Virus record (IMG/VR): IMGVR_UViG_3300025151_000327
Span: 1-22,757 of that record
DNA: 22,757 bases
From: a virus
Strand: one strand, 5' to 3'
Notes under the pieces: generated by a model
Told to the model about the DNA's origin: nothing
Database searches by the model: none
The model's input: the letters and a program-made list of their open reading frames with translations, nothing else
Shown: positions 2 through 3,833 of the stretch, in pieces
How the letters are laid out: every line of letters begins with the position of its first letter
How positions within the stretch are numbered: the stretch's first letter is position 1
Translations under genes and position numbers: made by a program

Positions 2-805
2 GTAGATGATGCTAGAGAAGTAGGAACAAGAGGTGAAAAGGTTACTCTAGATACACGTGGTCCTCGTACACGTGGTTATGTAGAGGATCAAGCAGGTGGT
101 CGCACAGGTGCTGCAAGAGCACGAAGGTATTTAGCTTTAAAAAATAAAGTTGATGGCGGTACGGCAACAAGAGCAGAACGCCTTGAATTTATGCGTATGG
201 CTTTTGCTGATGCTGATGCATTTACTCGTCAACAAGGAAGAAATATTAAATCTCGACAAGCAAAATCTACTGCTGGAAGATTATCTGCAAGGCAACGTGA
301 AAATGCTGTACAAAAATTTTATAACACAGGAGAAATTGTAGAAGGTTTTGAGCCTACACCTAATCAAATAAAAATTGCAAAGCAAAATGCTAAACGACGA
401 AAAGAATTAGCTAGTGATGGTGATGATACAGAAGCTATTTTGGCAGGTATGGCAGAGCGAGATGCTGCAAGAACTCAGCCACCAGCACGTAAACCTCTAA
501 GTGGTATTAGAGCCGAAGACGCTGGTGGTATGAAAGATGGTGGCCTAACTCGTAAAAAACGAAAGATAGCAGAAGCATATAAAGAGTACATGAAGACAAG
601 TGCAGTTAAAAAACGAAAGAAAAATGTAAAAAATACAGCATCTGCAAAGCGAAAACGAATTACAGCAAATATTATGTCTGCTGCAAAGGGTGGCATGGCA
701 GGTAAGAAACCTCGTAATGCTAACATAGACTACCGTAAAGGTGGTATGTTCTACGTAGGTGGTACGTCAGCTAAAGTTACACCTATTAATAAAGGTAAAA
801 AGTAA
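2..805 (+). CDS. C-terminal part of a basic, probably virion-associated protein (5' truncated)
   Basis: The reading frame is open from the left window edge, so the true start lies upstream. 267 residues are visible. I do not recognise a named family. The first half is rich in Arg, Ala and Gly. The last ~90 residues are strongly basic (runs such as AVKKRKKNVKN) and end in Gly/Lys-rich segments including KGGMAGKK and RKGGMFYVGG. Such a tail would suit a nucleic-acid-contacting or internal virion protein, but this is inference from composition. Its TAA shares its last A with the ATG of the next ORF, so the two are probably translationally coupled. An internal ATG at 191 is only a local Met in the open frame. 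Confidence 0.75.
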   Translation, partial: VDDAREVGTRGEKVTLDTRGPRTRGYVEDQAGGRTGAARARRYLALKNKVDGGTATRAERLEFMRMAFADADAFTRQQGRNIKSRQAKSTAGRLSARQRENAVQKFYNTGEIVEGFEPTPNQIKIAKQNAKRRKELASDGDDTEAILAGMAERDAARTQPPARKPLSGIRAEDAGGMKDGGLTRKKRKIAEAYKEYMKTSAVKKRKKNVKNTASAKRKRITANIMSAAKGGMAGKKPRNANIDYRKGGMFYVGGTSAKVTPINKGKK

Positions 806-1493: not shown

Positions 1494-1745
1494 ATGGTAG
1501 AAACTATGTTCATACTTATACTGTATCTTAAAGGCTCTGCTATAGAATATATGGGACACTACGATGTTCAAGGTAGGTGGAGAGTAATGGGAATGTCAGG
1601 TTGTCTTTCCATGAAGAGAACATTGAAAAGAAATGGATGGAGAGATTCTAAGGTATCCGATACAAGATACTCTTGTGAAAAAAGAAAGGTTTATTTAGAG
1701 AAAGATAAGTTCGGGCGCATGGTTGTAGCAAGGATTGTAGAGTAA
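1494..1745 (+). CDS. Small hypothetical protein (83 aa)
   Basis: A strong Shine-Dalgarno GGAGG at 1481-1485 sits 8 nt before the ATG. The protein begins with a hydrophobic strand (MFILILYLKG), then has a tyrosine/tryptophan-rich middle, two cysteines (in SGCLS and YSCEK) and a basic C-terminal half. The pattern of a hydrophobic start, CLSMKR and YSCEK resembles short proteins I associate with marine phages, but no function is known to me. It overlaps the Fe-S carrier gene by one base (TAATG), so the two are probably co-translated. Confidence 0.7.
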   Translation: MVETMFILILYLKGSAIEYMGHYDVQGRWRVMGMSGCLSMKRTLKRNGWRDSKVSDTRYSCEKRKVYLEKDKFGRMVVARIVE

Positions 1746-2077
1746 TGCCAAATGCAGTAAGCCTTACAGAAAAAGCAAGAAGTCACCTATTAAATATCTG
1801 CAATGATGAAAAACAAAATTATATACATCTATCTGTAGCTGGAGGTGGATGTGCAGGATTTTCTTACAAGTGGGATTTTGCAAACGAGTACGAAGCTACC
1901 GACGAGGTTATAAGTATAGAGCACGATAAAAAACTAATTATAGATGGTATGTCTCTAATGCATCTGATTGGTATGGAGATAGACTATAAAAAAGATATCT
2001 TCGGTTCTATTTTGCATATAGACAATCCAAATGTAACATCTAGTTGTGGTTGTGGAGAATCGTTTAATATCTTATAA
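1745..2077 (+). CDS. A-type iron-sulfur carrier (HesB/IscA/ErpA family)
   Basis: 110 residues, the usual length of A-type Fe-S carriers. In this family three cysteines hold Fe or a 2Fe-2S/4Fe-4S cluster and pass it to apo-proteins. Here they are C36 (in AGGGCAGFSYKW) and C101/C103 (in SSCGCGESF), with the family spacing of about 65 and 2 residues. An extra C19 is present. The family fold is visible in order: N-terminal helix (LTEKARSHLL), beta strands around the GGGCAGF loop, a central DGMSLMHLIGMEIDY segment and the C-terminal CGCG motif. The ATG overlaps the upstream stop. It was probably acquired from a bacterium and may help mature host or phage Fe-S proteins during infection. This is a metabolic-support role inferred from the family. 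Confidence 0.93.
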   Translation: MPNAVSLTEKARSHLLNICNDEKQNYIHLSVAGGGCAGFSYKWDFANEYEATDEVISIEHDKKLIIDGMSLMHLIGMEIDYKKDIFGSILHIDNPNVTSSCGCGESFNIL

Positions 2078-2390: not shown

Positions 2391-2419
2391 TTGCTTTAGT
2401 ATATTATTTATGGTACAAT
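2391..2419 (+). promoter_or_regulatory. Possible sigma70-type promoter ahead of the metallothionein/oxygenase genes
   Basis: TTGCTT at 2391-2396 and TACAAT at 2414-2419 are separated by exactly 17 bases. The -10 hexamer overlaps the ATG of the 84-residue ORF at 2418. If it is used, transcription would begin at about 2426, inside that ORF. The transcript would then serve the downstream genes at 2676 and 2835 rather than the overlapped gene. The region is AT-rich, so chance matches are common. Confidence 0.35.
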
Positions 2420-2672
2420 GAGCGAACGTGAATCCAATAACATAGTTTTTTTAGAAGAGGTAATAAAGCAGAAGTTACGTAAGGAAAAAGAGCTTGCTTT
2501 TTACGAACAAGAACTTGTCGTATTACAAACAAGGTTAGATTTTTTGAAAAGTGAGATTAGCCTTACAAACTTAATTATAAACCTCGTAACATCTGAAAGC
2601 GAATTGGATATCAAAAAAGTTCCACAGAACTTACGTATAGTGGAATATCTTGATAAAAAAATAAAGGAATAA
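2418..2672 (+). CDS. Small coiled-coil hypothetical protein (84 aa)
   Basis: The protein begins MSERESNNIVFLEEV and has a long charged amphipathic stretch at about residues 10-60 (LRKEKELAFYEQELVVLQ, then LDFLKSEISL). This is typical of a helical coiled coil. No membrane segment, cysteine cluster or catalytic motif is present. No obvious ribosome site precedes the ATG, and the start codon lies within a possible -10 hexamer. It sits between the membrane protein and the metallothionein-like gene. The role is unknown. Confidence 0.65.
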   Translation: MSERESNNIVFLEEVIKQKLRKEKELAFYEQELVVLQTRLDFLKSEISLTNLIINLVTSESELDIKKVPQNLRIVEYLDKKIKE

Positions 2673-2675
2673 AAT

Positions 2676-2828
2676 ATGGCTTGCTCTTGTAAAAATTGTC
2701 TTAATCCAGAGTGTCCTTGCACGGGACCAAATTGTGATGGATGTGACTGTGGTTGTCACCATCAAAAAAATTTAAAGAACCATTTATTGTGGAATGGGTT
2801 TTCTAATTTTACATACAGTGACATGTGA
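2676..2828 (+). CDS. Metallothionein-like cysteine-rich protein (50 aa)
   Basis: A 50-residue ORF starting 3 nt after the previous stop. The first 29 residues hold nine cysteines, C3, C5, C8, C13, C15, C20, C23, C25 and C27, followed by H28-H29. The spacing is C-x-C-x2-C-x4-C-x-C-x4-C-x2-C-x-C-x-C. Asn, Asp, Pro and Gly fill the gaps, and no aromatic residue occurs before W39. That is the signature of a metallothionein, a small thiolate cluster that binds Zn, Cd or Cu. The C-terminal 21 residues (KNLKNHLLWNGFSNFT and onward) are an ordinary polar/aromatic tail. The pattern does not match the SmtA type exactly, so a new subtype is possible. Metal binding is inferred from composition and spacing. 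A redox or zinc-ribbon role is less likely because the cysteines are too dense. Confidence 0.72.
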   Translation: MACSCKNCLNPECPCTGPNCDGCDCGCHHQKNLKNHLLWNGFSNFTYSDM

Positions 2829-2834
2829 GTACGC

Positions 2835-3833
2835 ATGAACCGTAAAGAACGTAGAGCGAAAGCTAAAACAGAAAAGACAGAAACAAAGAAAGAATACAAT
2901 CCGCTAGAAAATTCTAACGATCAGCCTTTCAAGGAACATATGCTTCATATGAAGGAAGCACATGATATAGGGCATCTTTTATGGTTACTGAATACAGGGC
3001 GTCTTTCACTTCCGTATCATCATCATCACGAGGAAGCATTAAATCTAAAACTTCCCTTTGATGCTATTTCAGAAAACTACTACAAGACACAACCAAACAT
3101 TGTAGTTATTGATGACTTTATGAATCTGGAAGCGTTGCAAAAATTAAAGAACTACTGTCTTGAGTTTCCATTTTGGAATACAATCTATGGCAGAGGATAC
3201 TTAGGTGCATTTAGGCAAAATGGATTTACACCACAAACTTTAGAAACATTAGCTTTAGAGATGGTGCAGAACCTACCCGATATTTTTAATACGACCAACA
3301 AACGTAATCTATCGCAGATGTGGGCATTTAAATATGAGTCTAAGTGTCCCGGCATTGATATACACGCAGACTTTGCGGCTGTTAATGTAAACTTCTGGAT
3401 TACTCCCACAGAAGCAAATGCAGATTATGATAAAGAAAAAGACATTGGTAAAACAGGGGGCATGTGGATTTGGGATGCAGGTGCTCCTCCTGACTGGGAC
3501 TTTAATAGATACAACGGTGACGATAAGAATGAAGTTATGGAGTATCTAGAAAAGCAGCAATCAAAGGCTGTATATATTCCATATAAGTATAATCGGTGTG
3601 TTATGTTTGATTCTAATCTGTTTCATAAAACAGCAGATGTAAACTTTCTTCCGGGGTTTGACAATAAAAGAATAAATGTAACGATGCTATTTGGTCAACG
3701 TGAAAACACTGGAGTAGAACCTCAAGATATGTTAGAGGCTGAAAAGTTACGAAAGATGACTTCTCAATCTATTTTAGAAAACTTTGATTTAGAAACAGGC
3801 AAAATTAAATCCGTAATGGAAGAAGCTGTATAG
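2835..3833 (+). CDS. 2-oxoglutarate/Fe(II)-dependent oxygenase-like protein (332 aa)
   Basis: The expected facial triad of the 2OG-Fe(II) oxygenase fold is visible. H177 and D179 lie in DIHADF, and H264 in SNLFHKT. R279 in NKRINVTMLFG is placed to bind the 2-oxoglutarate carboxylate. The surrounding strands match a jelly roll: VNVNFWITP after HxD, GGMWIWD, then VYIPYKYNRCVMFDSNLFH. The N-terminal ~20 residues (MNRKERRAKAKTEKTETK) are a basic tail, and residues 62-65 are four consecutive histidines. The family hydroxylates proteins, small molecules or nucleic acids. The substrate here is unknown. It follows the metallothionein-like gene by 6 nt and probably shares its transcript. A sugar/SAM enzyme is unlikely given the HxD...H...R order. 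Confidence 0.75.
   Translation: MNRKERRAKAKTEKTETKKEYNPLENSNDQPFKEHMLHMKEAHDIGHLLWLLNTGRLSLPYHHHHEEALNLKLPFDAISENYYKTQPNIVVIDDFMNLEALQKLKNYCLEFPFWNTIYGRGYLGAFRQNGFTPQTLETLALEMVQNLPDIFNTTNKRNLSQMWAFKYESKCPGIDIHADFAAVNVNFWITPTEANADYDKEKDIGKTGGMWIWDAGAPPDWDFNRYNGDDKNEVMEYLEKQQSKAVYIPYKYNRCVMFDSNLFHKTADVNFLPGFDNKRINVTMLFGQRENTGVEPQDMLEAEKLRKMTSQSILENFDLETGKIKSVMEEAV

Follow-up and report, generated by a model that had tools for sequence, protein, structure and literature searches.

A nine-cysteine protein family of HMO-2011-type marine phages with probable metal-thiolate chemistry

The question raised by this locus is whether a short reading frame crowded with cysteine codons in a phage genome encodes a metal-binding protein, and whether such a protein would be a metallothionein. 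The locus lies in the window (the whole 22,757-base virus record analysed here), and the frame, which is a real gene, translates to MACSCKNCLNPECPCTGPNCDGCDCGCHHQKNLKNHLLWNGFSNFTYSDM, followed by a stop. The length of 50 residues, the nine cysteines and the spacing given for them in the initial annotation agree exactly with this translation, in which the cysteines stand at positions 3, 5, 8, 13, 15, 20, 23, 25 and 27 and are followed by H28-H29. All nine fall within 25 residues and form four CxC motifs (C3-C5, C13-C15, C23-C25 and C25-C27), and the core is laid out as three CxC..C units and then a histidine, that is CSCKNC, CPCTGPNC and CDCGC, joined by LNPE and DG and closed by H. The gene sits inside a compact run of genes that are all on one strand, and a start-anchored pattern of nine cysteine codons matched once in the window and not at all in 100 dinucleotide shuffles. 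The features discussed below are collected in Table 1.

Table 1. Positions of the cysteine-rich gene and its neighbours in the window
Feature	Position	Strand	Remarks
A-type Fe-S carrier (IscA/ErpA/HesB type)	1745..2077	+	PF01521, 4e-17; three Cys in place
Small membrane protein, holin-family-like	2046-2387 (possible start 2127)		phrog_2359, 6e-5
Partner gene, 84-residue coiled-coil-like protein	2418..2672	+	3 bp upstream of the Cys-rich gene
Shine-Dalgarno-like purine-rich stretch (AAAGGA) before ATG	2663..2675	+	3' end of the upstream gene; sequence reading
Cys-rich 50-residue protein gene	2676..2828	+	Cys9-His core (3-28) plus tail (30-50); tail kept in the close group
Presumed metal-binding core, residues 3-28	2682..2759	+	Cys 16/16, His 15/16
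2OG-Fe(II) oxygenase-like protein	2835..3833	+	HxD (IHADF), later His (LFHKT) and Arg (NKRIN) visible

The phage and the neighbouring genes

At the portal, the window phage shares 72% identity with Roseobacter phage CRP-1 and 70% with Puniceispirillum phage HMO-2011, and on these grounds it belongs with the HMO-2011-type marine podoviruses (PMC9038755). The window carries terminase, SU10-type portal and coat genes, which bear out the earlier view that the protein is phage-encoded, and their order (lysozyme, terminase, portal, coat) is that of HMO-2011-type phages. These phages share the packaging order and, like the window, have variable cargo before the lysozyme and terminase genes; HMO-2011 itself, in contrast to the window, has a methanesulfonate monooxygenase subunit gene in this region. 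Full searches of three cultured genomes (HMO-2011, CRP-1 and Pelagibacter phage HTVC033P) found no cysteine-rich gene. As a separate observation, several small basic proteins that otherwise differ from one another carry a motif like 'KKRxGHxDYRKGGMFY', in most cases at the C-terminus or close to it, and the motif recurs several times within a genome (window 191-805; L005 891-1229, 1235-1843, 1773-2423 and 2600-3022; L010 1788-1979), and it looks like a common tag for binding, packaging or localisation.

The most constant neighbour is the coiled-coil-like gene. A version of 75-94 residues lies upstream of every cysteine-rich gene found, usually at a distance of 1-4 bases and at most ∼0.6 kb, although most loci were retrieved via neighbouring genes and are thus biased toward linkage; the same linkage was seen in all 13 stretches from an independent pattern scan. 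The partner also occurs at 60 other loci without the cysteine-rich gene. Neither Pfam nor PHROGs has a family for it, and a search of deposited phages with one representative gave no match. We also observed that the partner, with its motif QKLRKExELxFYE (L198-L275), is common in marine phage contigs, where it precedes many different genes. On the other side, the 2OG oxygenase-like gene, whose product shares 30% identity (4e-15) with a Synechococcus phage protein annotated as a 2OG-Fe(II) oxygenase, directly follows the cysteine-rich gene in the window's group and lies ∼0.8-1.4 kb downstream of it in L010, L012, L015, L022, L027 and L034. The holin-like gene between the IscA-like and coiled-coil genes was not seen there in, for example, the relatives L003 and L006.

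Relatives, conservation and selection

A direct search with the cysteine-rich protein recovered six IMG/VR relatives that were 60-100% identical across all 50 residues. With the neighbouring oxygenase gene as bait, 59 loci were obtained, and a scan of these exposed more distant members, so that, summed over several searches, the gene is present on 20 IMG/VR contigs besides the window. These include a contig of 54.5 kb whose portal is HMO-2011-like. A fixed-spacing nine-cysteine DNA scan of viral contigs gave, among the matches listed, one true member (L120), the rest being low-complexity or antisense matches, and the start-anchored pattern took its place; this pattern returned 13 stretches of viral contigs, all of which were already in the group or carried its marker gene. 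Every cysteine-rich gene found is in an HMO-2011-type marine phage or has marker genes of such phages beside it. Among ∼85,000 species genomes of bacteria and archaea the start-anchored pattern had no match and a profile scan gave none that was confirmed, but these scans require near-exact short stretches, and highly diverged cellular relatives could escape them. A tblastn search of deposited phages and plasmids gave no credible match; hits to a Rhizobium phage and a bajarodmic virus had E near 1, covered half of the query and were rejected. The gene is accessory, because the oxygenase gene occurs without it in ∼19 loci that have at least 2 kb of upstream DNA.

Across 16 distinct sequences all nine cysteines are kept and the histidine after the ninth is missing from a single one, while most other positions vary. 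Gaps 3, 5 and 6 between the cysteines vary (4-5, 4-5 and 2-7, respectively), and the remaining gaps are constant. The His-His pair noted earlier is present in the window protein, but only H28 is conserved. Likewise, no aromatic residue stands among the cysteines of the window protein, as had been stated; the relatives L010, L022 and L034 do carry F or Y there. What had been described as a polar tail does exist but is not merely polar, as it holds L38, W39, F42, Y47, D49 and M50, which are unchanged across the six closest rows. This tail (LW..F....Y.DM) is a property of the close group; a similar ending, LW...Y.DM, is found in L010 and L012, other members are without it, and L017 has an altered start and has lost the tail. 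Whole-gene dN/dS was 0.14-0.42 for 15 pairs of the window's branch, values that are rough because few sites are available. Broken frames in close relatives had been proposed as a finding that would refute the initial reading; the frame is intact in them.

Metal-thiolate chemistry and its alternatives

We infer, with good support, that the protein is a metal-thiolate protein, because its nine cysteines are invariant and its histidine is conserved, the gene is under purifying selection, and the reading frame is intact in relatives. Moreover, the traits of metallothioneins as a functional class are present (small size, many cysteines, CxC motifs, few aromatic residues in the cysteine region). The explanation that we consider the most probable, with a fair measure of confidence, is an M3Cys9(His) cluster protein that acts like a metallothionein, is probably made together with its coiled-coil partner and handles metal of the host cell. 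The nine cysteines would most likely hold three divalent ions, Zn or perhaps Cd, with Cu(I) as a further possibility, and the adjacent histidine would, from known chemistry, serve as an extra ligand, in line with the ligand set of PflQ2 MT and with the three Zn of MSL2 CXC (both described below). In the infected cell the metal might be buffered, sequestered or passed on as by a metallothionein, a role that is speculative. Since the gene lies between the phage genes for the Fe-S carrier and the Fe(II)-dependent oxygenase, its product would plausibly keep Zn or Cu off iron enzymes, or else it may store Zn freed during take-over. This link to iron may be a coincidence, because the iron-linked neighbours are not constant, as the varying distance of the oxygenase illustrates. 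Neither a metal sensor or transporter nor a canonical metallothionein signature was seen. Alternatively, the tail together with the constant coiled-coil gene could hint at action through protein-protein contacts.

A rather unlikely alternative, although the one that survives best, is a compact CXC-type Zn3Cys9 domain with structural zinc, which would bind DNA or a host or phage protein, possibly jointly with its coiled-coil partner, and would serve host take-over and not metal handling. In the CXC domain of MSL2, nine cysteines in the order CxC, C, CxC, C, CxC, C hold three Zn (PMC3447885), and the phage protein has this same order, which it shares with the eukaryotic CXC, TCR, MSL2-CXC and pre-SET Zn3Cys9 domains; the fixed neighbour gene and the conserved tail of a subset would also suit a binding module. 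However, the published consensus CX[C/H]X2-13CX4-7CXCX5-60CX2-4CX1-2CX2-15CXN (PMC3447885) is matched by none of the 16 members; they mostly have 4 residues in gap 5 and a single one in the last gap, and CXN is absent. With loosened gaps and without CXN all 16 pass, but full-length mammalian MT2 passes too. The Pfam families TCR, MSL2-CXC and pre-SET did not match the phage members. Moreover, the core is mostly neutral or acidic, with a charge of -6 to +3 compared with +4 for MSL2, which speaks against DNA binding, and the window core is without a Tyr or Arg like those that enter DNA in LIN54 and MSL2. AlphaFold2 gave mean pLDDT values of 53 and 56 and no confident fold, which is neutral for a peptide that is folded by metal.

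An improbable reading is that of an iron chaperone or cluster intermediate that delivers Fe or Fe-S in concert with the IscA-like carrier and the 2OG-Fe oxygenase encoded next to it. HMO-2011-type phages have been reported to carry iscU/erpA (PMC9038755), and the order of IscA-like, holin-like (not always), coiled-coil, cysteine-rich and oxygenase genes in the window and its close relatives is consistent with such a role, as is the adjacency of IscA-like and NifU-like genes in L046. Nevertheless, the cysteine-rich genes of L010, L012 and L027 show no IscA gene alongside, the IscA-bearing L046 shows no cysteine-rich gene, and the protein has no ferredoxin-, IscU- or NifU-like cysteine motif. 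In L046, apart from this question, the IscA-like gene is directly followed by a NifU-like scaffold gene (PF01106, 3e-20; 2347-2661 and 2672-3010, respectively), which places two Fe-S assembly parts in one phage. Finally, a metal-free, disulfide-rich or merely cysteine-rich peptide, such as a redox buffer or a small protein that is part of the virion or secreted, is very unlikely, since the odd number of cysteines and the conserved histidine argue against pure disulfides, the CxC spacing disfavours them as well, and there is no hydrophobic N-terminal signal stretch.

Comparison with metallothioneins and CXC domains

The metal-thiolate reading leaves the question of family. The term metallothionein-like, as first applied to the protein, holds for the likely chemistry but not for family membership, as there is no Pfam match and the cysteine order differs from those of SmtA and MT2. 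The window protein (P0001) and nine relatives did not match PF02069 (prokaryotic metallothionein) even at E≤10, whereas the controls scored 4.5e-21 (SmtA) and 4e-22 (mammalian MT2) in Pfam. The layout of PF02069 (a CxCxxCxC start, a YCxxxCA zinc-finger part and a C-terminal CxC) was not found, as the gaps differ and the insert is absent, and the phage members tested had neither a profile match to PF00131 (animal metallothionein, beta-domain) nor its CxCx5CxCx3CxCx2CxCx2C order. NCBIfam and PHROGs gave nothing for the protein. Profile matches to TFIIIA, ZNF462 and Metallothio_Euk had E of 0.15-5 and were rejected. Profile comparison with SmtA, the metallothionein beta-domain and MSL2 CXC gave no meaningful alignment, although a single sequence on one side makes this a weak test. 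These sequence comparisons detect no membership in a known metallothionein family; the protein represents a new small phage family with its own cysteine order. Possible, though more tentative than the cluster reading above, is a phage-specific minimal M3Cys9(His) family, unrelated by descent to metallothioneins or CXC domains, that with its coiled-coil partner controls metal, or binds a host target via a CXC-like zinc cluster, in the infection of marine bacteria.

In the openly accessible, non-preprint literature that we searched, nothing relevant on a phage or viral metallothionein was found, and an earlier report may exist. An SmtA-like protein of 'Microcystis phage MaAM05' was rejected as a phage precedent, as its neighbours fabI and engB look bacterial; this protein (L276, MW495066.1 110278-113439) is annotated as hypothetical, and the record may be bacterial DNA. 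Fe-S-related genes are known in marine phages, and a phage metal-thiolate family is not described in the papers and libraries searched. If metal binding is true, phages of an abundant ocean group would handle the Zn or Cu of their host cells.

The bacterial metallothioneins (BmtA, SmtA and PflQ2 MT) resemble the phage protein in their length of ∼50 or more residues, nine cysteines and CxC motifs, and have one or two His ligands. The gaps of SmtA are 1,2,1,15,3,10,4,1 compared with 1,2,4,1,4,2,1,1 in the phage protein, which is without the zinc-finger insert; the initial annotation was therefore right that the two layouts differ, and no SmtB-like regulator as in SmtA systems was seen at the phage locus. 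In PflQ2 MT of Pseudomonas the cluster is Zn3Cys9His or Cd4Cys9His and the tail is disordered (PMC7387436), and its ligand set, Cys9His, is that of the phage protein. The vertebrate and crustacean beta-domain (M3Cys9), like the phage protein, has nine cysteines over 25 residues, and holds three divalent ions, but its gaps (1,5,1,3,1,2,1,2) give an order of CxC and single cysteines unlike that of the phage protein. The CXC domain of MSL2 has gaps of 1,11,4,1,6,2,1,2, and compared with CXC domains the phage protein is shorter, not basic, free-standing and without a sequence match. If the metal-thiolate reading is true, the phage protein would be a natural nine-cysteine cluster of 25 residues whose arrangement stands between those of metallothioneins and CXC domains.
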